A DNA stretch of 64,000 nt from Prochlorococcus marinus str. MIT 0918 (GTDB lineage Bacteria; Cyanobacteriota; Cyanobacteriia; PCC-6307; Cyanobiaceae), in NCBI RefSeq assembly GCF_027359415.1, contig NZ_CP114780.1, forward strand, positions 1-64,000, written 5' to 3'. The notes under the pieces were generated by a model that was not told where the DNA came from, did no database searches, and saw only the letters and a list, made by a program, of their open reading frames with translations. Positions 44,474 to 64,000 of the stretch are shown piece after piece (the stretch's first letter is position 1; every line of letters begins with the position of its first letter). The translations under genes and the position numbers were made by a program.

Positions 44474-45784
44474 TTAAAAATCATTCAATGAAGATTTAAA
44501 AGATTTAATAGGATCATGGTAATAAATATTCTCATCTATATGTTCACTTTCAAATCTTTTCAAAATAGTTGCTATTTTTAAATCAATATTAGCTATTTCA
44601 GATAAAACAAGAGTTTCATCATAATTAAATGGTAATGAATTGCTTTTTGGAAAGGAACTGTTATTTGAAAAAGAATTAATACTATTTGACTGTATGAAAA
44701 CTATATAATGACCTGCTAACTTTGCTTCATATAATAATGAAGAGTTTAGCCCAAAAAATATACACCTTTCCTGATTAAGAAGTTCCAATTTTGAAGAGAT
44801 ATCTACGATCGCTTTTTTGCCAAGTGAATTAAGACTGTTTTTTAATTGAGGGGTTTTGGATTCGTTTGGGTGAGGGCGGTAGAATAAATTTAAGGCTGGA
44901 TATTTTTCTAAGCTGAGAGATATTAAAGAATATAATTTAATGATTCTAGGGAAATAATCGAATTGATCTACTGAATTACCACACCAGCCACTACCAATCA
45001 AGTATATTTTTTTTAGTTGTGAGTTCTTATATGCAGAAGCATAATAAGATAATCCAATTGATGAATAATTAATTTTAGGATTAAATTGTTGAAGTTGTTT
45101 CCCTTGTTGATTGTTCCATACCATATTGTTAATTGTATAAGAACCTGTTGGAGGTATTTTCAGAGTTGTAGATGCCATCTCTATTAATCCATGTTGAATA
45201 CAAATAACTCTTAATGAAGGAATATTTAAAAGAGATAGGCAGCTAAGGAATGTACCCATGGGTTGTGTGTCTTCCCATATAAATATTTTACGTTCCTGGT
45301 TCATTAGTGATTTGGACCATCTATAAATATGGAATTTTAAAAAGAAATCAATATTCAAGTATTGATAAGCCTGTACTGCAAATACTTCAGCCAACATTGA
45401 TACAGTACATATATCAGGAAAACGAGAAGTATGAATAAAACCATTTGTATTACATAGACCTTGTTTTTCACGCTCTATAAGAATACAAATTTGATTCGAT
45501 GGAAAGGCATCAAAATAACTCGAATTTCTTAAACCTTGAAATATATACTTCTTGTTAAATAAATTCCTATTAGAATGAATAAATAAACCTAAGAAAGCTA
45601 TTATCAGGATCTTCATTTTTCTAATTATTGAAATATTTCCACTATTATTTGTTCTTAGACGCATTCTTTTAAATTTTCTACTCCAATCAATTCGAATTTC
45701 TTTTATTCTTTTACAAGTAGCATCATTATATTCGTCACTCCCTGAACACAAATAACCTATTAAATCACTAAGACTTTGGATCAT
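44474..45784 (-). CDS. surface-polysaccharide GT-B-like protein (copy 1)
   Basis: A 436-residue protein with the shared core RNSSYFDAFPSNQICILIER, the phosphate-binding IQHGLIEMAST segment, PTGSYTINNMVWNNQQGKQL, an LFYRPHPNES motif and a C-terminal FGLNSSLLYEAKLAG. HG plus RPHPNE plus GxxSSLLYEA is the layout of GT-B fold sialyl/polysialyl or glycerophosphate transferases of capsule clusters. It is paralogous to 52212-53465, with a TCTAG dyad upstream. The sugar is unknown. Confidence 0.65.
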   Translation of the reverse strand: MIQSLSDLIGYLCSGSDEYNDATCKRIKEIRIDWSRKFKRMRLRTNNSGNISIIRKMKILIIAFLGLFIHSNRNLFNKKYIFQGLRNSSYFDAFPSNQICILIEREKQGLCNTNGFIHTSRFPDICTVSMLAEVFAVQAYQYLNIDFFLKFHIYRWSKSLMNQERKIFIWEDTQPMGTFLSCLSLLNIPSLRVICIQHGLIEMASTTLKIPPTGSYTINNMVWNNQQGKQLQQFNPKINYSSIGLSYYASAYKNSQLKKIYLIGSGWCGNSVDQFDYFPRIIKLYSLISLSLEKYPALNLFYRPHPNESKTPQLKNSLNSLGKKAIVDISSKLELLNQERCIFFGLNSSLLYEAKLAGHYIVFIQSNSINSFSNNSSFPKSNSLPFNYDETLVLSEIANIDLKIATILKRFESEHIDENIYYHDPIKSFKSSLNDF

Positions 45785-49126: not shown

Positions 49127-50512
49127 ATGAAGCTTTTCCAGCAATTGCTGGTAGCCCCTGCTGCTTTGGGTCTTTTGGCTCCTTTAGCTGCTAATGCAGC
49201 TGAAGTCAACATCAATGATGTTGCTAATTATTCAACTAAAGTTGCAGAGGTGACAACATCTCAATACTCCGACGTTGTTCCTGGAGATTGGGCTTATACA
49301 GCTCTACAAAATTTAAGTGATAGCTATGGCTGTGTAGACAATGCCTACACACAAAATCTTAAGAGTGGTCAAGCTCTAACTCGTTATGAGGCTGCTGCAC
49401 TTATTAATGCATGTTTAGAAGGTGGGTTGACTTCTGTTGACTTCGATTCTGATGCAGTTCGTCTTTCCAATGAGTTTGGCACTGAAATGGCCATCCTTAA
49501 AGGACGTGTTGATGGACTTGAGTACAAAGTTAAAGAACTTAGTGCTGGACAGTTCTCTCCTACAACCAAAATGCATGGAGGAGCTGTATTCACAACTGGT
49601 TTCGTTGATGGACCGAGCTCCAAAGATGATAATAAGCTAACAACTGAGTATTCATATATGTTGATGACTCATACAAGCTTCTCAGGGAAAGACCATTTAT
49701 TTGCAAGCATAGATCAAGGGAATCATAATGATTTAATTATGGATAGTGCTATGGATATGACTATGAGTAGCTTGACTGTTAGTTCATTGTTTTATCAATT
49801 CCCAGTAGACGATTTCCAAGTAACAGCTGGTCCTCTAGTTGACCAAGATGATGTTATCTCTGCTACAACCTCTATTTACTCTGATGCTTTCAGATTAAGT
49901 AGCATGCGTTTTAGTGCATCAGGTGGGATGAATGAAACAGGCCCTGGTGTTGCTGTTGCTTACGCTAATGACAGTGGTTTCAACGGTTCAGTAAGCTACA
50001 TCGCTAATAATGGTGAAGTAGGAACTAAGGGTATGTTCACTAAAGAAGGTGATGACATATTGACTGCATCACTTGGTTATGACGCAGACAACTTCGGTGG
50101 CGGAATTCTTTATAAGAATGCCGATAACAATGGTGCCATCAATGGTGAAAAGACATTCGGTGTAGGTGCATACTTTGCTCCTGAGAATCTACCTACTATT
50201 AGTGTTGCTTATGACACTAAGGATCCAGAAACAGTTAGTACAACAACTAACCCAACGGGTAAAAATTCCTCTTCATTAATGATTGGATTGGATTATGAAG
50301 TAGGTCCTGGTACTGCAAGCTTTGCTTGGGAAAGTTATGAAGATGCTTCTATTTCATCTTATAAGACCCAAACCCTTTCTAATTATGAGCTTTACTATAA
50401 TTATCCTGTATCAGATGGCATTGCTGTTCAGGGCGGTATGTTTTATGAAGAAAGCAACGGTCGTCAAGCTGACACAGTTGGATATGTAGTTGAAACTTTC
50501 TTTAGCTTCTAA
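49127..50512 (+). CDS. SLH-domain outer-membrane porin (SomA/OprB-like)
   Basis: A 461-residue outer-membrane protein with a signal peptide (FQQLLVAPAALGLLAPLAAN, cut near ANA-A), an SLH domain (about 45-105, including YSDVVPGDWAYTALQNLSD and ALTRYEAAALINACLEGGL) that ties to peptidoglycan, a short coiled region and a C-terminal beta-barrel ending in a terminal aromatic VVETFFSF. It forms a general or anion/iron pore. A strong terminator follows 35 bp after the stop. Codon use looks highly expressed. Confidence 0.92.
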   Translation: MKLFQQLLVAPAALGLLAPLAANAAEVNINDVANYSTKVAEVTTSQYSDVVPGDWAYTALQNLSDSYGCVDNAYTQNLKSGQALTRYEAAALINACLEGGLTSVDFDSDAVRLSNEFGTEMAILKGRVDGLEYKVKELSAGQFSPTTKMHGGAVFTTGFVDGPSSKDDNKLTTEYSYMLMTHTSFSGKDHLFASIDQGNHNDLIMDSAMDMTMSSLTVSSLFYQFPVDDFQVTAGPLVDQDDVISATTSIYSDAFRLSSMRFSASGGMNETGPGVAVAYANDSGFNGSVSYIANNGEVGTKGMFTKEGDDILTASLGYDADNFGGGILYKNADNNGAINGEKTFGVGAYFAPENLPTISVAYDTKDPETVSTTTNPTGKNSSSLMIGLDYEVGPGTASFAWESYEDASISSYKTQTLSNYELYYNYPVSDGIAVQGGMFYEESNGRQADTVGYVVETFFSF

Positions 50513-51103: not shown

Positions 51104-51532
51104 ATGGATAGATCTAAAGAAGAACAAAACTCTGAGCATTGTGGTGGCAAACCTAAAAAAATTGCAATTGGCATAGCTCCACTTGGTTTTATATCCATTG
51201 GGGTAGTACCAATGGGAATTATTACTATTGGGATAGTACCAATGGGAGTTGTATCAGTTGGGATAGTAGCTATGGGAGTTGTGAATGCTTCAATAGTTGG
51301 AATGGGAATTTTCTCTGTAGGTGTAACAACTATGGGGATAATGGGGTGGTCGCCAGATTCAAGTGCTATTCAAAGAATTTCAGAGGAGTCAGGAGATACC
51401 TCTTTACCGAATTATTATGCTTTTCCAACAAGAATTGAAGCAAAAAGAGAAGCTAAAAAAATTGGATGTTTAGGTGTTCATAAGATGGGAAAACTTTGGA
51501 TGCCATGTGCATCCCATAACCTTGTGAAATAA
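51104..51532 (+). CDS. decapeptide-repeat protein with C-terminal DUF3721 domain
   Basis: A 142-residue protein. Residues 16-80 are six to seven repeats of about ten residues of the form [IV]-[IV]-x-M-G-[IV]-[IV]-x-[IV]-G (such as IVPMGVVSVG), likely a small hydrophobic solenoid or membrane hairpin. Residues 105-138 form a DUF3721 domain (TRIEAKREAKKIGCLGVHKM, then WMPC). The repeat recurs at 51612-51809. Function unknown. It follows the DUF3721 lipoprotein by 20 bp, so they are one operon. Confidence 0.7.
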   Translation: MDRSKEEQNSEHCGGKPKKIAIGIAPLGFISIGVVPMGIITIGIVPMGVVSVGIVAMGVVNASIVGMGIFSVGVTTMGIMGWSPDSSAIQRISEESGDTSLPNYYAFPTRIEAKREAKKIGCLGVHKMGKLWMPCASHNLVK

Positions 51533-51611
51533 TCTTTTTAACTCTCGTTCATTAATTTGGCGTTAAATTCCAAACCTCATATAACATCTAAATTATGTAC
51601 TTGTTGATGAC

Positions 51612-51809
51612 ATGCCCAAAGTAATTGCCATTGGGATCGCACCTCGAGGAATTATTGCTATTGGATTAGTTCCTATGGGAATTATTGCTATTGGGGGGGT
51701 ATCAATGGGAATCTTTACTATAAGTGCTGTTGGCATGGGACTGGTAAATATTTGTCTAGTTGGATGTGGTCTAATTGCTTATGGAGTAAAAGTAATGGGA
51801 CTTATTTAA
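51612..51809 (+). CDS. short decapeptide-repeat protein
   Basis: A 65-residue protein made almost entirely of the same ten-residue repeat as the previous gene (VIAIG, APRGIIAIG, VPMGIIAIG, VSMGIFTIS), starting MPKVIAIG. It has no DUF3721 part. The two look like a fusion and its free-standing relative. Confidence 0.65.
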   Translation: MPKVIAIGIAPRGIIAIGLVPMGIIAIGGVSMGIFTISAVGMGLVNICLVGCGLIAYGVKVMGLI

Positions 51810-52211: not shown

Positions 52212-53465
52212 CTAAAATTTCTCAAGAGCAGATAAGAATACTTCTATAGGTTTGTGATAAGACTCACTTTTTGATAATAAATTTAAATTAAAATTATTAA
52301 TCATTGTCTTGACCTCATTATTTATAGAACTAATTTCATCTATTGCTAAAGTGTAGTCGCATTTAAAACGAAAAGATCTACTCTCTTTAACTAAAACATT
52401 AACTGAAAAATGGTTTGCTATTTGAGCTTCGTATAAAAGAGAAGTATCTGAACCTATAAATATAGATCTATGAGAAGTTAATAATATTTTTTTATCTGTT
52501 TTATCAACCATGCATTTAGCTTTAAGAGATTTTAAACATATATCAATAATATTATTGATAATCTCATTTGGGTGGGGTCTATAATAAATTGGTGCTTCTA
52601 TATAATTAGATATTATAGGAATAATCATTGAATAGAAATATAGAATTTTATTGAACTTATCAAGATTGTAATTGTATAAACCACTACCCAATAAATAGAT
52701 TTTTGGTTTTTTTTCTCTTAGATTTGCACTAGCTACATAATCTAAACCAATAGGTATACATTTAGATAGCGGGTTTGATTCCTGAATTATTTTTCCTTGC
52801 TGATTATTCCATACCATATTGTTTAAAGTAAATGCACCAGTTGGTTTCATGGAAAGCCCCCAAAGGAAGCCATGTTGAATGCAAATAACACAAATATATT
52901 TATTTTTTAAACGTGATAATGATGAGATGAAAATCCCTAGTGGTTGAGAATCTTCATATATAAAAAAAGTTCGTTTATGATTACAAAATAGAGTATCCCA
53001 TTTGTAAAGTTGAAATTCCAAAAAGAACCTTAGACCCCAATATTGATAGGCCTTTACAGCTGATACGACAGCTAGCATAGAGATTGTTCTTAATTCAGGG
53101 TAATCAGATATTCTAGTTAATCCATGCCTATTACTATAAACTGTGTTTGTACCTTCTGTAAGAATGCAAATCTGAGAAAAACTAAAAGCATCAAAATAAG
53201 CAGAATTTCTTAGACCTTGAAAAAAATATTTTCTTTCTAATGATTTCTTAGAGGTGCAATTAAAAAGACCTAATACCGATCTAATTAATACTAATATACT
53301 CTTACCTGCTATTTGTCTGGCCTCAATTGCTTTTGGTTGAGATTTAATAGCTTCTTTCTCAAAACTTATTCTATCATTTATAATTTCTTCGCAAATTAAT
53401 CTGTATTTATCATCTTGATTCCTTTTAGCGAAGAAGGTTGCCAATAAGATAAGATTCGTAAGCAT
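52212..53465 (-). CDS. surface-polysaccharide GT-B-like protein (copy 2)
   Basis: A 417-residue paralog of 44474-45784: LRNSAYFDAFSFSQICILTE, CIQHGFLWGLS, PTGAFTLNNMVWNNQQGKII, YYRPHPNE and IGSDTSLLYEAQIANH are shared blocks. An N-terminal hydrophobic segment may anchor it. The C-terminal half carries the nucleotide-sugar type signature. It probably adds a sugar or phosphoglycerol unit. A degenerate TCTAG-like repeat (53490-53503) lies upstream. Confidence 0.65.
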   Translation of the reverse strand: MLTNLILLATFFAKRNQDDKYRLICEEIINDRISFEKEAIKSQPKAIEARQIAGKSILVLIRSVLGLFNCTSKKSLERKYFFQGLRNSAYFDAFSFSQICILTEGTNTVYSNRHGLTRISDYPELRTISMLAVVSAVKAYQYWGLRFFLEFQLYKWDTLFCNHKRTFFIYEDSQPLGIFISSLSRLKNKYICVICIQHGFLWGLSMKPTGAFTLNNMVWNNQQGKIIQESNPLSKCIPIGLDYVASANLREKKPKIYLLGSGLYNYNLDKFNKILYFYSMIIPIISNYIEAPIYYRPHPNEIINNIIDICLKSLKAKCMVDKTDKKILLTSHRSIFIGSDTSLLYEAQIANHFSVNVLVKESRSFRFKCDYTLAIDEISSINNEVKTMINNFNLNLLSKSESYHKPIEVFLSALEKF

Positions 53466-53568: not shown

Positions 53569-54420
53569 TTATTGCTTTGTTAATGAATGAATAGCTGAAT
53601 AATCAGATTTACTTAAATCCAACTCATTTGCTTTGTCTAATAAAAGACTAAGGCTTTTTAAAACACTTATATCAATACCCAATTTAGTAGATTCATTGAT
53701 AAATAAATTTAGATCTTTAGAAAGATTTGAAATATTAAAGTTTGGTCCTTCATAATTTTCTGATATCATACGTTCTTTCTTTTTATCAAATGTTTGGCAA
53801 AATAATGCTGATTTACTTAAGATACATAGGAATTTATTGATATCAACATCTGTATGTTGAATATACCTTAATGAAATTGAGAAACCATGAGTTAGGGAAG
53901 CAATTAATTGATTCAGAGATAGCTTGCAGGCAGATGCTTTAGAAACACCACCTAGATAGTAATAGTCTTTTGATAGAAGCTTGAATAGATATTCATACTC
54001 TGAAAATTTATTTGGATTACCACCAATCATAATTAGAAGTTCTCCCTTTAATGCCTCTGGCACACTTCCTAAAACAGGGGCTTCTAAATAAAAGCCTCCA
54101 AGCGATGAGACTTTTTTATCTATTTTTAAACTTTCTTCAGAGCCAATAGTCCCCATTTGTATTATTACCTTTCCTTCCAATGAACCTATTTGACTAATTA
54201 CTGACCATGTGACTGGTCCATCATTGAGAACTGAAATTATTATTTTGTTGTTTTGAAAGTCTTTGCTTAAGTCATAAGCAAGATTAGCCCCTATTTTTTG
54301 AAGATGATTACACTTACTAATAGTTCTATTCCATACTATTAATGAATTGCCTTTACTTATTAATCGCTCGGCAATAGATGTACCTAGCAACCCAGTACCA
54401 AGAAGTGCTATCTGTTCCAT
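53569..54420 (-). CDS. beta-hydroxyacid dehydrogenase (HIBADH/GLYR family)
   Basis: A 283-residue NAD(P)-dependent dehydrogenase of the 6-phosphogluconate/3-hydroxyisobutyrate type. The Rossmann motif LLGTGLLGTSIAERLI is at about 5-20, WNRT follows, the substrate segment is APVLGSVPEALKGEL, and the active-site Lys is in SKASACKLSLNQ. The family oxidises or reduces small 3-hydroxy acids. It is divergent from the ACP/LuxE/LuxC operon, and may supply or remove a short-chain acid for it. Confidence 0.85.
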   Translation of the reverse strand: MEQIALLGTGLLGTSIAERLISKGNSLIVWNRTISKCNHLQKIGANLAYDLSKDFQNNKIIISVLNDGPVTWSVISQIGSLEGKVIIQMGTIGSEESLKIDKKVSSLGGFYLEAPVLGSVPEALKGELLIMIGGNPNKFSEYEYLFKLLSKDYYYLGGVSKASACKLSLNQLIASLTHGFSISLRYIQHTDVDINKFLCILSKSALFCQTFDKKKERMISENYEGPNFNISNLSKDLNLFINESTKLGIDISVLKSLSLLLDKANELDLSKSDYSAIHSLTKQ

Positions 54421-54614: not shown

Positions 54615-54655
54615 TCTAGTTAATCTAGATATTATAGATAATCTATTTAATCTAG
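54615..54655. promoter_or_regulatory. array of five 9-bp TCTAG-type units (iterons)
   Basis: Successive units start at 54615, 54624, 54633, 54642 and 54651: TCTAG TTAA, TCTAG ATAT, TATAG ATAA, TCTAT TTAA, TCTAG ATAT. The exact 9-bp period places each unit on nearly the same helical phase plus a step. It lies 78-118 bp upstream of the ACP start and heads the long operon. Confidence 0.7.
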
Positions 54656-54732
54656 ATATTGTTTAGTTGTGCTAAAATTATAAGTTGGCAATATATTTAA
54701 TTTGCCTAGAACATTTAATAATCCTAAAAACA

Positions 54733-54969
54733 ATGAATCCAATTGAAAGGTATAAGAAAGTCTTTATAGATAGTTTTGAAATTACTGAAAGCAGCTTAGA
54801 GGACCTCAAGTATCAAGACATCCCTCAATGGGATTCTCTAGGACATATGTCAATGATTGGGGCTCTAGAGGATGAATTTGAAATTATGTTTGAAATGGAT
54901 GACATTATTGATTTTAGTTCTTATAAAAAAGGGATAGAAACTTTAACAAAGTATGGCATTGAATTTTAA
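54733..54969 (+). CDS. acyl carrier protein
   Basis: A 78-residue ACP with the phosphopantetheine attachment site WDSLGHM at about 34-40, acidic helices and the usual D/E-rich surface (EDEFEIMFEMDDIIDF). It carries an acyl group as a thioester. The open frame extends upstream to 54685, but the ATG at 54733 starts a normal-length ACP. It heads the operon and is six bases upstream of the acyl ligase. It is not the housekeeping FAS ACP, judging by sequence and place. Confidence 0.92.
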   Translation: MNPIERYKKVFIDSFEITESSLEDLKYQDIPQWDSLGHMSMIGALEDEFEIMFEMDDIIDFSSYKKGIETLTKYGIEF

Positions 54970-54975
54970 TTATAT

Positions 54976-56400
54976 ATGATTAATTTTCTTTCAGAATATC
55001 AATCAAGTGATAAAATAGCATTAATCAATGAAGACAGTAAACTTTCTTATGGCACTTTAAATTCTAAAATAGATCAATTATTAGAGAAATTTAAACCAAA
55101 AACAATAGTTATATTAGTTTGCGATAATTCAATAGAATCAATTATTCTATATTTAGCTTTATTAAAGGTAGAAGCAATACCTTTGTTGTTAAACTCTGCC
55201 CTCAATCAAAGTGAAATATTATATTATTCGGATGCTTATTGTGCAGAAAAAATCATTTCACCTTTTAAAATTGATTCTCTAAATATAGAAAGTATTGAAT
55301 GTTATAGCCATTTCTCTATTTCTCAAGTCAAAGGATTTAAATTAGTTGATAATTATAATCAACTTGCTTTATTATTAACCACATCTGGAAGCACTGGGAG
55401 CCCAAAGCTTGTAAGAATAAGTAAAGATAATATAATTTCCAATACAGAATCTATTATTAATTCTTTATCTATTACGGGGAAGGAAAGACAAATAACAACT
55501 TTACCTATGAACTATACTTATGGACTATCATGTATTAACACATTACTGTTTTCTGGTGGATCAATTATTGTTAATAAGCATTCGCTTGTAGAAAGAAGTT
55601 TTTGGGACCTTGTTGCAAAGTATTCCCCTACAACATTAGCTGGTGTCCCTTATACATATGAGATGCTTTATAGAATTGGGTTAAATAAATTATCGACTAC
55701 TACCATAAATAAATTTACGCAAGCTGGAGGTCAACTTAATAATGATATCTTGCATCAGTTTGCATTATTCTGCCAAGAAAATAATTCTCAGTTTTTTGTG
55801 ATGTATGGACAGACAGAAGCTACAGCTAGAATGTCTTGTCTTCCAGCAAATAAATTATTAAAAAAAATTGGAAGCATAGGAGTTGCGATTCCTGGAGGTG
55901 AATTTTCAATTAATAAAAACCCTATAGTATCTGAGCAACCCTTTAATTATGGAATAGAAGGTAAAGTTGTTGGAGAATTAGTATATAACGGAAGTAATGT
56001 TAGCCTTGGCTATGCAGAGTCTTTTGATGAACTAGATAATAAAAATACATTTAATTTTACTCTACATACTGGCGATTTGGCTTGGAAAGATAATGAGAAT
56101 TATGTTTACATTGTTGGTCGCCTAAATAGATTTGCTAAAATTAATGGGATAAGAATATCATTATACGACATAGAAGTAATTCTAAAGAATCTAGGTTATA
56201 TAGCAGCAGTTATAAGTAATGATAAAAAAATAACTATTTTCATTGAAACCAAATTAAAACAATCTGACTCTCTCTCTATAAAAGAAAAGTTAATAAAAAA
56301 GACAACTATTCCTCCAACCGCTCTACTCATTAAGTTTATTGATGTATTTCCACGAAATATTAATGGGAAAATTGATTATTATAGGTTGGCTAGTATATGA
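54976..56400 (+). CDS. AMP-forming acyl ligase (acyl-ACP synthetase type)
   Basis: A 474-residue ANL-superfamily enzyme: P-loop LLTTSGSTGSPKLVRI, MYGQTEATARM, the Asp motif HTGDLAWKDN and the hinge RLNRFAKINGIRIS, ending with a likely catalytic Lys in NGKIDYYRL. It should activate a carboxylate as acyl-AMP and load it on the adjacent ACP. The acid is not predictable. Its stop overlaps the LuxE start in ATGA. Confidence 0.88.
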   Translation: MINFLSEYQSSDKIALINEDSKLSYGTLNSKIDQLLEKFKPKTIVILVCDNSIESIILYLALLKVEAIPLLLNSALNQSEILYYSDAYCAEKIISPFKIDSLNIESIECYSHFSISQVKGFKLVDNYNQLALLLTTSGSTGSPKLVRISKDNIISNTESIINSLSITGKERQITTLPMNYTYGLSCINTLLFSGGSIIVNKHSLVERSFWDLVAKYSPTTLAGVPYTYEMLYRIGLNKLSTTTINKFTQAGGQLNNDILHQFALFCQENNSQFFVMYGQTEATARMSCLPANKLLKKIGSIGVAIPGGEFSINKNPIVSEQPFNYGIEGKVVGELVYNGSNVSLGYAESFDELDNKNTFNFTLHTGDLAWKDNENYVYIVGRLNRFAKINGIRISLYDIEVILKNLGYIAAVISNDKKITIFIETKLKQSDSLSIKEKLIKKTTIPPTALLIKFIDVFPRNINGKIDYYRLASI

Positions 56401-57494
56401 ACATCAACGACATTAGCACTTCATATTTAGATAACTATGAAAATTTTCTAATACATGATAACTTTAAAGTAGATCTTCTTAGACAAGTTAATTATCTTAC
56501 AAGTCATCATTACATTAAATGTAGACCTTATAGATCTTTTGTTAATAAAATTTTTCCAGATTATTCTACCGATATTGGATCTTTGCATTTAGAAGAGATT
56601 CCATACTTGCCAGTAAATATGTTTAAAGAGTTTAAGTTAAGTTCAATTACGGAAGAAAATATATTTAAGGTTTTACAATCCTCTGGTACTACTTCTCAAT
56701 TAAAATCTAAGATCTATTTAGATAAGGATACTGCCAAAAATCAATCTGTAGGTTTATCTAAGATATTTACCGACTTCACTGGATTGAAACGTCCAAGAAT
56801 ATTAATAATTGATAGCCCTGATTTAATTAAAAGAAGCAGTGCTTTTTCAGCCAGAAAAGCAGGAATTATAGGCTTTAGTGCATTATGCAGAAAGCCACTA
56901 TTTGCATTAAATAGCGATATGTCTATTAATCTGGAAAATATATATAAAGCATTTGAAAATGATAACGAATATGTATTATTATATGGCTTTACTTATATTA
57001 TATGGTCACATTTGCTACATACAAAGTTACCTGATGACTTAAGAAAAAAATTAAGTACGAATTCAATACTTCTTCATGGTGGTGGATGGAAAAAACTTAA
57101 CCATCTTCAAATTACCAAAGAGGACTTTAATAATAAATCCCAGTCTTTTCTTGGAGTTCAGAGAGTAATTAATTATTATGGAATGGTCGAGCAAACGGGT
57201 AGTATTTTTATGGAATGTGAAAATGGATACCTGCATTCCAACCCCCTTTGTGATGTATTGCCACGATCTGTAGAAAATATACAAGTAATTGATCAAAATA
57301 ACGTTTCTTTAGCTCAAGTGATATCAGCTTTACCTACTAGTTATCCTGGACATAGCCTTTTAACAGATGATTTAATTAAAATCCATAATAAGGATAAATG
57401 CAGATGCAATCGCAAGGGCACTGTTTTCGAAGTTATTGGTAGAATTCAAAGATCAGAACCAAGAGGATGTAGTGATACATATGAATATAGATAA
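56397..57494 (+). CDS. LuxE-like acyl-protein synthetase
   Basis: A 365-residue protein with LuxE-type motifs: LQSSGTTSQLKSKIYLD, a hinge region and HGGGWKKLN. In luminous bacteria, LuxE activates fatty acids with ATP and passes the acyl group to LuxC. LuxE and LuxC here are adjacent and overlapping. Starts overlap the upstream ligase. No luxAB is present, so the role is not luminescence. Confidence 0.85.
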   Translation: MNINDISTSYLDNYENFLIHDNFKVDLLRQVNYLTSHHYIKCRPYRSFVNKIFPDYSTDIGSLHLEEIPYLPVNMFKEFKLSSITEENIFKVLQSSGTTSQLKSKIYLDKDTAKNQSVGLSKIFTDFTGLKRPRILIIDSPDLIKRSSAFSARKAGIIGFSALCRKPLFALNSDMSINLENIYKAFENDNEYVLLYGFTYIIWSHLLHTKLPDDLRKKLSTNSILLHGGGWKKLNHLQITKEDFNNKSQSFLGVQRVINYYGMVEQTGSIFMECENGYLHSNPLCDVLPRSVENIQVIDQNNVSLAQVISALPTSYPGHSLLTDDLIKIHNKDKCRCNRKGTVFEVIGRIQRSEPRGCSDTYEYR

Positions 57495-58719
57495 AGCAGA
57501 TATAGAATGCTTAGCTGGATCTAAACCAGAGAACATAATTAATGAGAAACCATTTCAAATCTATGATTTAAAAACCATAGATTTTTTATCAAAACTATCT
57601 AGTGAAATCTTAGCTCTTTCTAAAAAAGATGATAAATACAGGATCTTCTTATATTTTGCTCTTTGGTCTAGAAAATCTAATTTATTACGACTTAGTCAAA
57701 ATAGAAATGACTTGGAATATAGATTTGGCAGAGGTTTTGCATTCCATATTGCTCCTAGTAATGTCGTTACTAATATTTTATTTACAATGGCTTTTGGACT
57801 TTTATCTGGCTGCCCTTCCTTAATAAGAATTTCAAATAAAAGTAAACCTAACATCATAGAAATAATTCACCTTATAAATACAATATTACACAATGATGAA
57901 TTCTTATCAATTAAGAAAAAAATATCTTTAATTTCTTATTCCCATAATGAATCTATTTCCCAGAGTCTTTCCATTAATTCATCTATTAGAGTCATATGGG
58001 GAGGTGATAGCACTATAAACTATTTTAAAAGATTTAATACTCAAGCAAAATGTATTGATTTAGTATTTCCAAATAGAACTTCATCAGCTCTTATCTCAGG
58101 TGATTGGTTAATTAATTCATCAGAAGATGATCAAAAAATAATAGCTACTTCTTTTGCTAATGATATAGCATTATTTGCTCAGAAGGCTTGCTCTTCTCCT
58201 ACAAAGTTATATGTTCTTGATGATGGTCTGAAAACAGAGAGAGTTGCTTATTCCCTGAAGAAGTTTTTTATGTATTGTGATCAGGCTATAAATAATATAA
58301 GAGATGTAGATACCGATCACTCTTTTAATAATTTTAAGTCTGCTAGTCTTCTCTCTTTAGAAATGAGACAAGATATCAATAGCTTCAGAGGTAAGAATAT
58401 TTTTGTCTTATATTATTTAGATAATGCTAAAGATCTCGATATAGATTTTACTTGTGAAAATAGTTGTTTATTAGCATATAAGATTTCAGATCTTATTAAG
58501 ATAAAAGATCTATTGCATTATAATAATCAGACGATAGTAGCAATAGGTTTTGATAAGTATCAACTAGAAAGCCTGAAATCGATAGTTGCCCCATTAGGAA
58601 CAGATAGGATAGTACGTGCTGGGATGGCTTTAAATATGGATATAAACTGGGATGGATATGATATAGTTAGCTATATGACAAGATTAATTCAAGTAAGTAA
58701 TGGTAGGAAAATCATTTAG
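57481..58719 (+). CDS. LuxC-like acyl reductase
   Basis: A 412-residue protein of the LuxC/aldehyde-dehydrogenase-like family, with catalytic Cys in FAQKACSSPTKLYVL and the family region FGRGFAFHIAPSNVVTN that binds NAD(P)H. It would reduce an acyl thioester or acyl-enzyme to an aldehyde. The frame runs upstream, but the ATG at 57481 overlaps LuxE by 14 bases and is preferred. The stop overlaps the next gene. Confidence 0.85.
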   Translation: MNIDKADIECLAGSKPENIINEKPFQIYDLKTIDFLSKLSSEILALSKKDDKYRIFLYFALWSRKSNLLRLSQNRNDLEYRFGRGFAFHIAPSNVVTNILFTMAFGLLSGCPSLIRISNKSKPNIIEIIHLINTILHNDEFLSIKKKISLISYSHNESISQSLSINSSIRVIWGGDSTINYFKRFNTQAKCIDLVFPNRTSSALISGDWLINSSEDDQKIIATSFANDIALFAQKACSSPTKLYVLDDGLKTERVAYSLKKFFMYCDQAINNIRDVDTDHSFNNFKSASLLSLEMRQDINSFRGKNIFVLYYLDNAKDLDIDFTCENSCLLAYKISDLIKIKDLLHYNNQTIVAIGFDKYQLESLKSIVAPLGTDRIVRAGMALNMDINWDGYDIVSYMTRLIQVSNGRKII

Positions 58720-59176
58720 CCTTAGTGCTAACGAATTGCAGTTATATCAGCCAAATAGATATCCTTTTCTAATGATAGATAGAGTTACTGATGTAATGCC
58801 TGGTAAATATGCAATAGGATTTAAAAATTTAACCAATAATGAATGGTATTTCCCTAAGCATTTTGAGAATCATCCAAATATGCCAGGAGCATTACAATTA
58901 GAAGCTATGGCTCAAATGCTTACTGTTGCTATAACAACAATTGATGGTTTAAAAGGAAAAATAACACATGCTCTAGAACACACAGTTAGATTTAAGAAAG
59001 AAGTTCTTCCTGGAGATAGATTAGATATAAAAGCTGAGCTTATAAGTTGGAAAAGAGGTATTGGAAAAGGTAGAGGAATTTGTACAGTCGAAGGAGTTGA
59101 GGTTTCATCGGCAGATATGACAATTACAATTCCTGAAATCTTGGAAAGATATCTACCCAATAATGGAAAAATTTGA
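58700..59176 (+). CDS. FabZ-like 3-hydroxyacyl dehydratase (hotdog fold)
   Basis: A 158-residue hotdog protein with the FabZ active region YPFLMIDRVTDVMPGKYAIG, catalytic His in HFENHPNMPGALQLEAMAQ and the Glu in LEAMAQ. It removes water from a 3-hydroxyacyl-ACP. It overlaps both neighbours by 20 and 14 bases, showing one operon. A working partner of the local ACP is likely. Confidence 0.88.
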   Translation: MVGKSFSLSANELQLYQPNRYPFLMIDRVTDVMPGKYAIGFKNLTNNEWYFPKHFENHPNMPGALQLEAMAQMLTVAITTIDGLKGKITHALEHTVRFKKEVLPGDRLDIKAELISWKRGIGKGRGICTVEGVEVSSADMTITIPEILERYLPNNGKI

Positions 59177-60761
59177 CATAGTAATAATTGGTGCCGGAGC
59201 TTCTGGATTAGCTTCTTCATGGTATTTAACAGATAAAGGCTATAAGGTTGCATGTTTTGAACAAGGAGATTTTTTACGAGAAGATTCACTTATTGATCTA
59301 AATCAAGGTGGTGAAATACAAAAATATGGATGTTTATCACCTGATCCTAATTTAAGAAGGTCTAAGGCTGATTATCTTATTGACTCCAGTAGATCTCCTA
59401 TACATATTGCTAATTACAATGGAGTGGGAGGAGCTACTATTTTATTTTCTGCACAATATCCAAGGCTTACTCCTAATGATTTTAAGGTATTTAGTAATGA
59501 TAAAGTTGGTAAAAATTGGCCAATAGATTATAAAGAAATAATCCCTTTTTATGATTTAAATGATAAAATTACTGGGCTTTCAGGATTGTCAGGTGATAAT
59601 AAAGAGCCTTTTGCTAAACCATCCATGCCCCCCGTCCCTTTTGGATCTATGGGGAGAAAATTAATAGAAGGCTTTGAAAAGTTGAATTGGCATTGGTGGC
59701 CTGCTTATAGCTCAATAAATACACTACCTTATGATAATAGGCCAGCTGATAATTATTTAAGGCCTTCTAACCTTGCAGGGGGATTAGATGGATCTAAAGG
59801 TTCTACTAATAATACTTATTTGCCAAAGGCAATGACCCATGGCTTGATATTAAAAAGAAATTCTAGAGTTGTTAAACTAATTAAGGACCCAGCTAATAAT
59901 TTGATCGAAAAAATAAAATATTTAAATGAAATAGGTCAAGAATGTTTTGCTAAAGCAAAAGTATTTATCTTAGCTGCTAGTGGAATCGGCACCCCAAGGT
60001 TATTATTATCATCAAATAATGGTATTAATTCAAGAGGAATTGCAAATAGCTCAGATATGGTTGGGAGAAATTTGATGTTGCATCCATTAGGATATATAGA
60101 AGGGCATTTTTTGGATAATCTTGATTCAAATATTGGTCCTCAAGGATGTTGCCTCTTGTCACAAGAGTTTTACGAAACAAATCCAGATAGAGATTTTAAA
60201 AGAGGATATACTTTCCAAGTCATTAGAGGACCTTTACCAATCGAATTAGCATTAAATTTAACTAGTCGGAAATTATTAAAATTTGGAGAAAACTTTTTTA
60301 GGGATTTTAATTCAATTTATAATCATACTGCTCATATGACAGTTATTACTGAAGATTTGCCAGATAAAGAAAATAGAGTGACTATAAAAAAATCTTTTGA
60401 AGATACGAATAATCCATCTGTTCAAATAGACTATACTTTATCTGATAATACAAAAAGAATGTTAATTCATGGAATAAATAATGGTAGAAAGCTCATGAAA
60501 GCTTCAGGTGCAAAGAAAAGTTATGCATTTGGACCTGTAAGGAATACTGGTTGGCATACACTAGGAACCTGTTGTATGGGTAATAATCCTAAAGAATCTG
60601 TTGTAAATAAGTATGGGAAAACCCATGATATTGATAACTTATTTATCGTTGATGGTTCTATATTTACAACCTCAGGAGGTGTTAATCCAGCTTCAACAAT
60701 TCAGGCTTTATCACTTTATGTATCTAGTAAGATAGATACAGTTTATAAGCATTTATTCTAA
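59163..60761 (+). CDS. GMC-family FAD oxidoreductase
   Basis: A 532-residue glucose-methanol-choline oxidoreductase: FAD motif IVIIGAGASGLASSWYL at about 5-21, GVGGATILFSAQYPRL, and C-terminal catalytic His in TGWHTLGTCCMG followed by VDGSIFTTSGGVNPAST. It oxidises an alcohol or sugar hydroxyl. A small protein follows directly, as small subunits do for related gluconate and sorbitol dehydrogenases. Confidence 0.88.
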   Translation: MEKFDIVIIGAGASGLASSWYLTDKGYKVACFEQGDFLREDSLIDLNQGGEIQKYGCLSPDPNLRRSKADYLIDSSRSPIHIANYNGVGGATILFSAQYPRLTPNDFKVFSNDKVGKNWPIDYKEIIPFYDLNDKITGLSGLSGDNKEPFAKPSMPPVPFGSMGRKLIEGFEKLNWHWWPAYSSINTLPYDNRPADNYLRPSNLAGGLDGSKGSTNNTYLPKAMTHGLILKRNSRVVKLIKDPANNLIEKIKYLNEIGQECFAKAKVFILAASGIGTPRLLLSSNNGINSRGIANSSDMVGRNLMLHPLGYIEGHFLDNLDSNIGPQGCCLLSQEFYETNPDRDFKRGYTFQVIRGPLPIELALNLTSRKLLKFGENFFRDFNSIYNHTAHMTVITEDLPDKENRVTIKKSFEDTNNPSVQIDYTLSDNTKRMLIHGINNGRKLMKASGAKKSYAFGPVRNTGWHTLGTCCMGNNPKESVVNKYGKTHDIDNLFIVDGSIFTTSGGVNPASTIQALSLYVSSKIDTVYKHLF

Positions 60762-60764
60762 TAG

Positions 60765-61184
60765 ATGAAATATAATAAATTAAGAAAAAGTCTTTACTTT
60801 ATATCTAATTTGGCCATACCCCCTAATGATAAAATCAATCAAGGACTTGGTACATTGTTAGACTCTTACGAAAATAAATTTAATAATGACCTAGCTCTTG
60901 AATTAATTAAAAATCATATTAGACACTTTCATTTCTTAGAGACTCTTATGGATTTAAATTTGGATAGCTATGAAGAAGTTTGTAATAAGATTAATGATCA
61001 ATTTAGTTTAGAAGAAAATAGAATATTTTACGATGAATTTAGGATTTATGCTGTCAAGACCTATTTTTCGCATCCATTAGTTTTGACTGAATTGGATTTA
61101 CTATATAATGGATGTGATTTAAATAAGGTTATGAGAACTCATGAGGATAGAATGATTTTAGATTCTATTATAGAAAATGACTAG
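60765..61184 (+). CDS. small partner of the GMC oxidoreductase
   Basis: A 139-residue helical protein (LRKSLYFISNLAIPPNDKIN, ELIKNHIRHFHFLETLMDL), lacking an obvious domain. Position right behind a GMC oxidoreductase matches the gluconate 2-dehydrogenase small-subunit (subunit 3) layout, but there is no twin-arginine signal visible. Overlaps the SDR gene by eight bases. Confidence 0.55.
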   Translation: MKYNKLRKSLYFISNLAIPPNDKINQGLGTLLDSYENKFNNDLALELIKNHIRHFHFLETLMDLNLDSYEEVCNKINDQFSLEENRIFYDEFRIYAVKTYFSHPLVLTELDLLYNGCDLNKVMRTHEDRMILDSIIEND

Positions 61185-61920
61185 AATAGATAAAATAGCT
61201 ATAGTCACTGGTGCAGGGGGAGGGATTGGCTTTTCCATAGTTAAAAACTTAATTCATAGTGGATACTTAGTTGAGGCCTGTACAAAGAGGAATATAGATC
61301 AATTGCTTTCCTTTAAGGAAAATATTGATAAAGAATTAAAAGAGAATTTAAAAATTAGAACGTTTGATATAAATAATTTTAATAATGTTAAGGAGAATAT
61401 ATTATCAATATATAAAACTAAAAAGAGGATAGATATTTTAATAAATTGTGCAGGAATTCCGCACGGAGGATTATTCAATTTAACTAATATTGAAGATGCT
61501 AAGCAGATATTTGATACGAATTTCTTTTCACAATTATACTTAACCCAATTAGTATCAAGATTAATGGGTAGAAATAAACAAGGAGTTATTATTAATATTT
61601 CTTCAGTTACAGCTTTTAGGAATGACCCTGGAACATTAACATATGGATCATCAAAAGCAGCCTTGAACTATGCAACCAAAATTCTTGCTAAGGAACTTTC
61701 TTCAACTGGTATTAGAGTTAATGCTATAGCACCAGGCATTACAAACACGCCTATGCTAAGCCTTATGGACGAAAAAGCTTTAACTAGTCAACTATCAGAC
61801 AGTTCCAATAAAAGCATTGCAGAACCTAGTCAAATAGCTTCGCTTGTGTCTTTTTTATGCTCAGATGAGTCATCTCATATTAATGGTCAGATAATAAAAA
61901 TTGATGGTGGACAAGGCTAA
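61177..61920 (+). CDS. short-chain dehydrogenase/reductase
   Basis: A 247-residue SDR with NAD(P)-binding TGAGGGIGFSIV (about 11-22), NCAG, the catalytic Ser in NISSVTAF, YGSSKAALN as YxxxK, and a C-terminal INGQIIKIDGGQG, typical of 3-oxoacyl-ACP reductase-like enzymes. It may reduce a keto group on the acyl chain or sugar. Its stop overlaps the transketolase start (TAATG). Confidence 0.9.
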   Translation: MTRIDKIAIVTGAGGGIGFSIVKNLIHSGYLVEACTKRNIDQLLSFKENIDKELKENLKIRTFDINNFNNVKENILSIYKTKKRIDILINCAGIPHGGLFNLTNIEDAKQIFDTNFFSQLYLTQLVSRLMGRNKQGVIINISSVTAFRNDPGTLTYGSSKAALNYATKILAKELSSTGIRVNAIAPGITNTPMLSLMDEKALTSQLSDSSNKSIAEPSQIASLVSFLCSDESSHINGQIIKIDGGQG

Positions 61921-62747
61921 TGAACTATAAAGAATTTAATTACAACCAATTAAAAGAGGATGCTTATTCTGTTAGAAAAAAAATATTAGAGCTTTCTTAT
62001 AAATCAGGTGGTGGACAGCATATAGGTGGAGGTCTTTCAATGGTTGAAATAATGTGTTACTTATATGGATATAGATTAAATATTAGTCCAGATAATCTTA
62101 CAGAAATAGATAGAGACCGCTTTATATTGTCCAAGGGACATGGAGTGCTAGGTTTTTATCCAATCCTTAATCATTATGGAATAATTAATGATGAAACTTT
62201 AAATACATATAAACAACAAGATTCTGAACTAATTTCTCACCCGATAAAAAATTATAATCTTGGAATTGAATCTTCTAATGGAAGTCTTGGTCATGGTTTA
62301 TCATATGGTTTAGGAATAGCTCATGGCTTAAAGTTAAAAGAAATTAATTCTAAGGTATTTATTTTAATGGGTGATGGTGAATGTAACGAAGGATCAGTTT
62401 GGGAAGCTGCAATGTCAGCTAGCACTTTAAAAATAGACAATTTAATATTAATAATTGATTTTAATAAGTATCAGAGTGATGGGAAAACACAAGAAATTAT
62501 CAATCAAGATCAATTAGCTGCAAGGTGGTCTTCATTTGGTTGGAATGTTATAGAAGTAAATGGACATGATTTTTTATCAATAGATAATGCCTTTCAGAAT
62601 AAAATGTTAATTGGATCTCCCAATCTCATATTAGCCCATACAATTAAAGGTAAAGGGGTTGATTTTATGGAGAACAACAATTCTTGGCATCATGGAAGAC
62701 TTACCGAAAATTTGTTTAATGAAGCAATAAATATTCTAAAAAGATGA
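61920..62747 (+). CDS. transketolase-like protein, N-terminal (TPP-binding) subunit
   Basis: A 275-residue protein matching the first half of transketolase: SGGGQHIGGGLSMVEIMC, SKGHGVLGFYPILNHYG, and the TPP motif GDGECNEGSVWEAAMSAS. It is split from the C-terminal half, as in two-gene transketolases of secondary-metabolite and O-antigen clusters. Overlaps the next gene in ATGATG. Confidence 0.92.
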   Translation: MNYKEFNYNQLKEDAYSVRKKILELSYKSGGGQHIGGGLSMVEIMCYLYGYRLNISPDNLTEIDRDRFILSKGHGVLGFYPILNHYGIINDETLNTYKQQDSELISHPIKNYNLGIESSNGSLGHGLSYGLGIAHGLKLKEINSKVFILMGDGECNEGSVWEAAMSASTLKIDNLILIIDFNKYQSDGKTQEIINQDQLAARWSSFGWNVIEVNGHDFLSIDNAFQNKMLIGSPNLILAHTIKGKGVDFMENNNSWHHGRLTENLFNEAINILKR

Positions 62748-63730
62748 TGCCAATTTTAAATAAGAATTTATCTAGACAGTGGTCAAGAATAGGTCAAAGA
62801 GGAATTTATGGCCAAAGTCTTTTATCTTTGGCAAATGACAATACCAATATATTTGCAATCTCAGCAGATTTGGGTAATTCTTCTGGTTTAGATAGATTCA
62901 AACAAAGTTTTCCAGAAAGGTTTATTAATATAGGTATTGCTGAACAAAATATGATTGGTTTCTCATCTGGATTATCCACTCTAGGTTATAACGTTTTTGT
63001 TTCTAGTTTTGCTCCATTTATTACTATGAGAGCGTGCGAACAAGTAAGAATGAATCTTGGATATATGCAGTCTAACGTCAAAATAGTTGCTATAGGAAGT
63101 GGTCTTTCGATGGGGTTTTTAGGTAATTCACATTTTGGTATAGAAGATATATCTATTGTTAGGTCAATTCCTAATATCCCTATTATTTGCCCATGTGATT
63201 GTTTTGAAGTTTATAAATCCCTAGAAGCATTATCTAATTACCAAGGCCCTGCCTTTTTAAGATTAACCGGAGGTTCTCCAGCTTCATCAATATATAAAGA
63301 AGACTATGAATTTGAAATTGGTAAATCAATTACCCTTAAGGAGGGTAAAGACATTTTGATTTTATCTCATGGAAGTATTCTTTCTAATGTTATTAAAGCT
63401 TCAGAGAAATTGGAAGATAATTACTCTATCTCCTGTCATATAGAAAATGTTCATACATTAAATCCTATCGATGATAAAATATTTTCTATTATAAAACAAT
63501 ATCAAACTATAATTACTATCGAGGAACACTCTATCATTGGGGGATTAAGTTCAATTATTTCTGATTCATTACTTTCGTTTAAAAATGATGTTAGTAACCA
63601 TATAAAAATAAATTTACCAGATAGCTTTCTTAAATCTGGTACATATGAGCAATTGTTAGAAAAATACTCACTCAGTAGTGATAAAATCTATTCTAGAATT
63701 GTTCATGAATATATAGAGACTAATAATTGA
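62744..63730 (+). CDS. transketolase-like protein, C-terminal (pyrimidine-binding) subunit
   Basis: A 328-residue second half of a transketolase/DXS-like enzyme: ISADLGNSSGLDRFKQSFPE, catalytic Glu in NIGIAEQNMIGFSSGLST and a C-terminal transketolase domain (KDILILSHGSILSNVIKA). With the previous gene it makes a full thiamine-dependent ketol-transfer enzyme. Confidence 0.92.
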   Translation: MMPILNKNLSRQWSRIGQRGIYGQSLLSLANDNTNIFAISADLGNSSGLDRFKQSFPERFINIGIAEQNMIGFSSGLSTLGYNVFVSSFAPFITMRACEQVRMNLGYMQSNVKIVAIGSGLSMGFLGNSHFGIEDISIVRSIPNIPIICPCDCFEVYKSLEALSNYQGPAFLRLTGGSPASSIYKEDYEFEIGKSITLKEGKDILILSHGSILSNVIKASEKLEDNYSISCHIENVHTLNPIDDKIFSIIKQYQTIITIEEHSIIGGLSSIISDSLLSFKNDVSNHIKINLPDSFLKSGTYEQLLEKYSLSSDKIYSRIVHEYIETNN

Positions 63731-63739
63731 TATTATTAA

Positions 63740-64000
63740 ATGGAAAATAAACGATTTAAAGCATTAGTTGTTCGACGAAGTATAGAAAAAGATTATAGTT
63801 TTAAATTAGAAGATAAAAACTTATCTGAGTTGCCTGATAAAGAACTTCTTGTTAGAGTCTATTATTCTTCTATAAACTATAAGGATGGAATGTCATGCTT
63901 AGGTAATCCCTCAATAACAAGAAGATACCCTCATACCCCAGGAGTTGATGCAGTAGGGGTTGTTGAAGAAAGTAATAATTCCGAATATAAAATAGGAGAT
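63740..64000 (+). CDS. MDR-family quinone/acrylyl-CoA reductase-like, cut by window end
   Basis: The first 87 residues of a medium-chain reductase of the YhdH/AcuI type: RVYYSSINYKDGMSCLGNPS, YPHTPGVDAVGVVEES. These enzymes reduce C=C bonds of enoyl thioesters or enones with NADPH. It is nine bases after the transketolase gene, so the operon continues beyond the window. Confidence 0.75.
   Translation, partial: MENKRFKALVVRRSIEKDYSFKLEDKNLSELPDKELLVRVYYSSINYKDGMSCLGNPSITRRYPHTPGVDAVGVVEESNNSEYKIGD

Follow-up and report, generated by a model that had tools for sequence, protein, structure and literature searches.

A Prochlorococcus operon joining LuxE/LuxC-type acid reduction to a split transketolase: a candidate cassette for acyl groups of surface-glycan amino sugars

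What might a cyanobacterium make with LuxE- and LuxC-type enzymes and a transketolase in two parts, all encoded in one operon? The question is raised by the end of the window, the first 64 kb (64,000 nucleotides) of Prochlorococcus marinus str. MIT 0918, whose genome (G000) is a single contig of 1,789,313 bases. An operon of 13 genes lies there on the + strand, from 54733 to 66115, and passes the window end (64000) by 2.1 kb. With slightly more confidence than doubt, we read it as a mobile cassette for assembling a short polyhydroxylated acyl group on a dedicated carrier protein, destined for the amine of an amino sugar (a nonulosonic acid or a 4-amino sugar) of a surface glycan. The genomes themselves show the gene content, conservation, module borders and glycan context; from them we infer the substrate, every chemical step and the product. 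The genes of the operon are these:

54733..54969, + strand: ACP, a stand-alone acyl carrier protein (PP-binding, 17.9 bits, a weak match below the cut-off of 20.8)
54976..56400, + strand: LIG, an AMP-forming acid ligase, probably acid:ACP (AMP-binding, 8e-41)
56397..57494, + strand: LuxE-family acyl-protein synthetase (LuxE, 3e-45)
57481..58719, + strand: LuxC-family acyl reductase (LuxC, 3e-25), its probable start lying inside the open reading frame (ORF) 57436-58719
58700..59176, + strand: FabZ-like dehydratase 1 (FabA-like, 4.6e-24; NCBIfam FabZ, 116 bits against a cut-off of 113)
59163..60761, + strand: GMC flavoprotein dehydrogenase (GMC_oxred_C, 4e-25)
60765..61184, + strand: 139-aa ORF, candidate small subunit of the GMC protein (no Pfam match of its own)
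61177..61920, + strand: short-chain dehydrogenase/reductase (SDR) of the transketolase-linked subfamily (adh_short, 4e-47; SDR tree)
61920..62747, + strand: TKN, thiamine diphosphate (ThDP)-binding half of a split transketolase (Transketolase_N, 1e-38; GDG...N motif)
62744..63730, + strand: TKC, pyrimidine-binding and C-terminal half of the split transketolase (Transket_pyr, 4e-30; Transketolase_C, 2e-18)
63740..64744, + strand: MDR/zinc-ADH-like (enoyl-reductase-type) oxidoreductase of 334 aa, within which the window ends at 64000
64747-65208, + strand: FabZ-like 2, past the window end
65231-66115, + strand: AAC(3)-like N-acyltransferase, past the window end

The sequence-only reading that first drew attention to the locus had claimed at least ten genes in one tight operon. 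All ten, from ACP to TKC (54733-63730), are intact and follow the order it gave; seven of their nine internal junctions overlap (-1 to -20 nt), and the other two are gaps of 6 and 3 nt. Pfam confirms the families (AMP-binding, LuxE, LuxC, FabA-like, GMC, adh_short, Transketolase_N, and Transket_pyr with Transketolase_C). The likely ACP start is the ATG at 54733; the 54615 first proposed lies slightly upstream. Reading on beyond 64000 revealed no ordinary sugar pathway. Gaps of 9, 2 and 22 nt precede the MDR, FabZ-like 2 and AAC(3)-like genes, and genes unrelated to the operon start after the last of these.

The gene content limits what kind of operon this can be. As the earlier reading noted, luxAB do not accompany the set: no luxA or luxB homologue was found among the 13 operon proteins scanned, and an ordinary lux operon was rejected on that ground. 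No ketosynthase is encoded among the 13 genes, so a fatty-acid synthase or polyketide cluster was rejected as well. Present in the one operon are a stand-alone ACP, an AMP-ligase, LuxE and LuxC, the combination of ACP/LuxE/LuxC glycan-acyl modules, and the N-acyltransferase of such modules is matched by the AAC(3)-like gene in last position.

Alignments show the ACP serine motif DSL(G/I)HM kept in 5 relatives and the ANL motifs of LIG (474 aa) invariant across 10 homologues. LuxE has its adenylation motifs and an invariant C-terminal Cys358, its sole solved relative being LuxE 7xc6_E; LuxC conserves the ACSSP cysteine motif, and FabZ-like 1 has the catalytic His and Glu motifs. The transketolase halves are complementary, with GDG...N in TKN and the catalytic Glu (GIAEQN) in TKC; the best solved relative of TKN is the N-terminal component of the split-chain transketolase 6yak (2e-57). 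Because adenylation motifs are kept in both LIG and LuxE, two activations are available, which fits a diacid with one carboxyl held and the other reduced. The nearest stand-alone solved relatives of LIG are oxalate-, malonyl-, succinylbenzoate- and D-alanine ligases, a kinship with ligases of small polar acids and diacids that may be taken as a suggestive clue to the substrate. A diacid-binding arginine in the LIG pocket was also considered and dropped, the alignments to malonyl-CoA ligase being too uncertain.

The GMC protein is nearest to the fructose dehydrogenase large subunit and FAD-glucose dehydrogenase (8xcm_A, 1.8e-43; 6a2u_B, 4e-42), and no signal peptide was seen on it by eye. In the comparison with fructose/glucose dehydrogenase-type GMC complexes the large subunit is clear, whereas the small subunit is recognised only through an orthologue: the Duganella protein at the position of the 139-aa ORF passes Gluconate_2-dh3 (28.0 against 23.4 bits). 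AlphaFold modelled the ORF itself with low confidence (pLDDT 69), and Foldseek found nothing meaningful. Judged from the Duganella orthologue only, the ORF is probably a Gluconate_2-dh3-like small subunit of the GMC dehydrogenase.

When genome contigs were searched with a LuxE alignment, 436 relatives came up, of which the best 80 were read; a single LuxE sequence as query gave no matches. Most of the ~80 loci read have the core of ACP, ligase, LuxE and LuxC. Loci without a transketolase mostly add one SDR, and 21 loci carry a split transketolase, usually behind an SDR. The full combination, which was unfamiliar to the earlier reading, proved not to be unique. In Prochlorococcus AG-363-B11 (G011) these ten genes recur, identically ordered, at an unrelated genomic place, with 47-54% protein identity to G000 in the pairs measured (LIG, LuxE and SDR). 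The same set occurs in Duganella fentianensis (L048), in a proteobacterial metagenome-assembled genome (MAG; L057) and on Rhizobium plasmids, with GMC and FabZ together in both L048 and L057. Since the same ten genes recur in other genomes, chance assembly of the set is excluded. The R. beringeri plasmid pRlX5 and D. fentianensis carry the complete ten-gene cassette, with GMC, small ORF and FabZ, in loci that are unstudied; they differ in the class of acyltransferase, which is PglD-type. The gene order also differs on pRlX5, running TKN, TKC, PglD-like transferase, ACP, ligase, GT2, LuxE, LuxC, SDR, small ORF, GMC (interrupted in the annotation), FabZ.

Phylogeny ties the transketolase to one particular SDR. 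On the LuxE tree, transketolase presence needs 14 changes, and the transketolase-bearing loci of Lysinibacillus fusiformis (L078) and Kurthia (L085) nest among transketolase-less Bacillaceae. On the SDR tree, the SDRs of the same two loci group with transketolase-linked SDRs, and the transketolase-less label needs 3 changes against a shuffled mean of 17.6, with 0 of 500 shuffles as low. Set against each other, the two trees indicate that the SDR was swapped together with the transketolase. This would follow from the two SDRs reducing different substrates, the LuxC aldehyde in one case and the transketolase ketol in the other.

FabZ and an oxidase (GMC or radical SAM) are likewise associated within the transketolase loci: 9 have both, 0 have FabZ alone, 1 has the oxidase alone and 11 have neither (Fisher p=3e-5, for loci that are not fully independent). 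GMC and radical SAM never occur in the same transketolase locus, and in three other family members a radical SAM/SPASM protein takes the place of GMC, beside NeuB-family, NeuA-like or AAC(3) genes. Two loci with radical SAM and FabZ genes, from Selenomonas bovis (L021) and a Lachnospiraceae MAG (L042), each carry two split-transketolase pairs.

A different ThDP enzyme appears in ten FabZ loci without a transketolase (L043, L047, L050, L052, L063, L070, L072, L080, L081 and L086). There, a full-length acetolactate-synthase-like enzyme (L052:12954-14741, for instance) comes right after FabZ and is followed by a NeuB-family protein. The gene order is (LIG-)LuxE-LuxC-ACP-FabZ and then the ThDP enzyme, in Rhizobium, Novosphingobium, Chromobacterium and others. 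By homology, this enzyme would be a second ThDP carboligase tied to the LuxE/LuxC/ACP core, and the loci possibly represent a sister pathway with a pyruvate-derived extension.

The relatives lie among surface-glycan genes. Around the G011 cassette is an O-antigen cluster: a PglD-type gene flanks it on one side and DegT/WbpM-type genes on the other, genes for sugar nucleotides, glycosyltransferases and CMP-sugars are close by, and a NeuB-family gene lies ~17 kb from TKC. In L078 and L085 a simpler version, in the order GNAT-ACP-SDR-TKN-TKC-LIG-LuxE-LuxC, is embedded in a pseudaminic-acid operon, with PseB on one side and PseF/PseG/PseI/PseC on the other: flagellin, an MptE-like protein, PseB-like and, in L078 only, an FkbM methyltransferase stand 5' of GNAT, and a CMP-transferase, PseG, PseI, an aminotransferase and FliD stand 3' of LuxC (PseG and PseI confirmed in L078). 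An N-acyltransferase gene of the PglD, GNAT or AAC(3) type directly adjoins ~14 of 22 transketolase modules.

Several described systems share parts of this set. In Vibrio cholerae O1, perosamine bears an N-linked tetronate (2,4-dihydroxybutanoate) made from malate by wbe genes, including the ligase WbeL (PMC3441752, PMC10746206). The genes VC0248-VC0252 (wbeK-wbeO) resemble the cassette in having an acid ligase (WbeL with 471 aa, LIG with 474 aa) and an O-antigen setting; the product is C4, and the likeness is one of description rather than of sequence comparison. Morona et al. in 1995 are said to have noted an ACP, a LuxC/LuxE-like reductase and a hexapeptide transferase in the tetronate set too. 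We know of no transketolase, FabZ or GMC in it, and an iron alcohol dehydrogenase presumably stands where the cassette has its SDR.

For the flagellin islands of Dickeya, an ACP, a ligase, LuxE, LuxC, a FabG-type SDR and a split transketolase are listed, together with a hexapeptide acyltransferase and an aminotransferase for a 4-amino sugar, beside fliC (PMC4522980, PMC7575072). The Prochlorococcus operon contains the complete core (tktA, tktB, luxE, luxC, ligase, ACP and FabG-type SDR), but without the adjacency to fliC, no flagellin gene being seen among the ORFs at 40-82 kb. The Dickeya islands differ in turn: no GMC, small subunit, FabZ or AAC(3)-like gene is reported, and the mechanism goes no further than the word 'liposugar'. 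Aeromonas group II flagellin islands have an ACP, a 3-oxoacyl-ACP reductase-type SDR, an AMP synthetase, LuxE and LuxC beside pse genes (PMC7874193), and differ from the operon in lacking a transketolase. In Campylobacter jejuni, the aminopeptidase-like Cj1295 is required for a di-O-methylglyceroyl N-acyl group on pseudaminic acid, and an N-acetyltransferase gene is adjacent (PMC3068675). Cj1295 with Cj1296/7 differs in its acyl-building genes, and in G000 the Cj1295-type gene, beside PseC/PseI, is ~580 kb away from the operon. We take Cj1295 to be of the DUF4910 type; an AAC(3) and DUF4910 gene pair lies beside the LuxE-transketolase module of another relative (G032). The glycan context, the adjoining N-acyltransferases and the Cj1295 parallel together suggest that the acyl group would be assembled on ACP and then handed to an amino sugar. 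Transketolase-LuxE sets are already listed in Dickeya, without a mechanism, and carrier-borne hydroxyacyl modules for glycan amino sugars are a known kind; the literature searched yielded no report of the GMC/FabZ subtype or of an occurrence in picocyanobacteria.

The sequence-only reading had proposed acid activation, ACP loading, reduction to an aldehyde and addition of a two-carbon ketol by the transketolase. This route is the best fit to the comparative data, and its chemistry might run as follows. LIG would charge ACP with a small acid, probably a diacid (malate-like, C4), linked through one of its carboxyls. The other carboxyl would be activated by LuxE as an acyl-enzyme and reduced by LuxC to the aldehyde, to which the split transketolase would add a two-carbon ketol, giving a six-carbon 4,6-dihydroxy-5-oxo chain. 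The transketolase-type SDR would then reduce the ketone. In the GMC subtype, the GMC protein and its small subunit might re-oxidise one of the hydroxyls; the FabZ proteins might then eliminate water, and the double bond be saturated by the MDR reductase, yielding a deoxygenated variant. With GMC, two FabZ-like proteins and MDR present, oxidation, dehydration and saturation probably follow chain extension in Prochlorococcus. Finally, the AAC(3)-like transferase would move the acyl group from ACP to the amino sugar, a role that a PglD-type or GNAT transferase would play elsewhere.

Reported glycan masses can be compared with this route. A mono-N-acetyl nonulosonate residue has a mass of 274.116. 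Adding di-O-methylglyceroyl gives 390.164, which matches the 389-390 Da sugar of C. jejuni (an arithmetic check), and adding dihydroxybutanoyl (102.032) gives 376.148. The glycan of Aeromonas AH-3, a strain with a transketolase-less module, has a 376.14 Da sugar and an unexplained 102 Da moiety (PMC7874193), and the flagellin glycan of Treponema denticola has a mass of 450.2 Da (PMC9481697). The dihydroxybutanoyl form plus a C2 ketol and hydrogen (C2H4O2) comes to 436.169, and a further O-methyl to 450.185. Kurniyati et al. in 2017 reportedly described the T. denticola glycan as pseudaminic acid with a 2-methoxy-4,5,6-trihydroxyhexanoyl group. Such an acyl group would be expected from malate semialdehyde extended by C2, then reduced and methylated; the analogy is one of glycan structure.

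The earlier reading left the product as either lipid-like or sugar-linked. The sugar-linked half gains good support from relatives in O-antigen, nonulosonate and flagellin-glycosylation clusters. For a liposugar or lipid, LIG/ACP and LuxE/LuxC would convert a fatty acid of medium or long chain to a fatty aldehyde, and the transketolase ketol would create a sphingoid-like 1,3-dihydroxy-2-ketone head group, later glycosylated. In luminescence, LuxE and LuxC do use C14 fatty acids, FabZ and SDR are similar to enzymes of fatty-acid synthesis, and 'liposugar' was proposed by the authors of the Aeromonas, Enterobacteriaceae and Dickeya papers. We nevertheless regard a lipid-like product as unlikely, because LIG is nearest to small polar-acid ligases and the known core analogue, the tetronate system, makes a four-carbon acyl group (PMC3441752, PMC10746206); the operon also has no ketosynthase, the modules adjoin N-acyltransferases rather than lipid enzymes, and the GMC partner is nearest to sugar dehydrogenases.

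A higher-carbon sugar would suit the position of the cassettes among nucleotide-sugar genes, and transketolase and fructose-dehydrogenase-like GMC enzymes naturally use sugars: a nucleotide-sugar uronic acid would be reduced at C6 to an aldehyde by LuxE/LuxC, extended by transketolase to an octose and deoxygenated by GMC, FabZ and SDR. It is quite unlikely in our view, as it leaves ACP, LIG and the adjoining N-acyltransferases unexplained, and the recurrent set includes no UDP-sugar 6-dehydrogenase or glycosyltransferase. The split ThDP enzyme beside an ACP also recalls the NapB/NapD-type two-part enzymes of antibiotic pathways, for which C2 transfer to ACP has been proposed. By that precedent, the transketolase would move C2 from a ketose phosphate to ACP, forming glycolyl-ACP, and LIG, LuxE and LuxC would act on a separate substrate. 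This appears very improbable: TKN and TKC are ordinary transketolase halves, the SDR swap ties the transketolase to a step after LuxC, and the operon has no lipoyl-type domain.

Some observations weigh against an acyl group built for an amino sugar, or at least against the details given here. G000 does have, on the supporting side, PseB, PseC and PseI above cut-offs, a PseH-like GNAT below cut-off and a DUF4910/DUF2172 (Cj1295-type) gene beside PseC/PseI, but PseG was not recognised in this genome, and the pseudaminic genes lie ~580 kb from the AAC(3)-like gene that ends the operon. Homology to oxalate and malonate ligases does not fix LIG specificity, and another acid could be the substrate. 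The mass agreement came after the fact, isomeric acyl groups fit equally well, and in Aeromonas the 376 Da sugar may be independent of LuxE/LuxC. The order of steps and the roles of FabZ, GMC and MDR are guesses, and for all cassette members substrate and product are inferred.

In its host, the operon has the features of an acquired segment. Gene order around it is common to G000 and a same-genus relative (G001, which we take to be like strain SS120), positions 51.1, 68.7 and 70.5 kb corresponding to 1375.1, 1366.5 and 1356.2 kb, and no counterparts of G000 52.2-66.1 kb were found in the matching G001 stretch. The GC content of the operon region is 29.8%, against 35.0% over the first 40 kb. 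LuxE is present in 2 of 14 genomes of the genus, in 5 of 300 sampled in the family and, under a stricter limit, in 1 of 390 genomes of the class sample. The segment is rare and was probably acquired horizontally.

Glycan-type neighbours within the window are possible ones only, whereas the relatives' modules lie in surface- or flagellin-glycan clusters. The divergent neighbour of the operon is of uncertain membership in the pathway:

53569..54420, - strand: 3-hydroxyisobutyrate-dehydrogenase-like protein (NAD_binding_2, 7e-28; NAD_binding_11)

Two paralogous-looking proteins without a Pfam match, of 436 and 417 aa, are encoded on the minus strand at 44474-45784 and 52212-53465, the latter just upstream of the operon; the pair might be glycan-related transferases. 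Small repeat proteins of GIAPxGIIAIGxVPMG-like units (51104-51809) are conserved in G001 at the island edge. By eye, a porin-like protein lies at 49127-50512; its second copy, at C1:576052, is 86% identical, and C1:654259 holds a third relative. A second surface-glycan-like cluster begins ~17 kb past the operon (C1:83573-87943) and comprises, by eye, a 598-aa FkbH-like HAD protein, a MaoC-like hydratase, an SDR and DegT aminotransferases. As befits a Prochlorococcus-type genome, the contig has dnaA at its start (by eye) and Pcb-type antenna genes near 114-119 kb. A metal-binding ABC substrate-type protein with long Asp-His repeats (DDHDDHDDH) lies at 33335-34939; its neighbours, again by eye, are CobW-type GTPases, a Fur/Zur-like regulator and an ABC transporter.

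Beyond this genome, we tentatively propose, with a little less than even confidence, a modular and ketosynthase-free way of building acyl groups. An ACP-held acid would become an aldehyde through LuxE/LuxC and be extended by a ThDP carboligase, either a split transketolase or an acetolactate-synthase-like enzyme; interchangeable oxidases (the GMC pair or radical SAM) and FabZ would modify the chain. Several phyla, non-motile picocyanobacteria among them, would export the product as an N-acyl decoration on amino sugars of the cell surface. If true, this would explain the LuxE/LuxC genes in glycan islands of many phyla, which current papers assign to a 'liposugar', and would show a transketolase used for acyl-chain extension. 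It would also offer likely structures for unexplained glycan masses and, where the SDR-transketolase trio is the sole difference between strains, sharp predictions of mass. For Prochlorococcus, it would mean a variable surface decoration, a plausible target of selection by phages and grazers.

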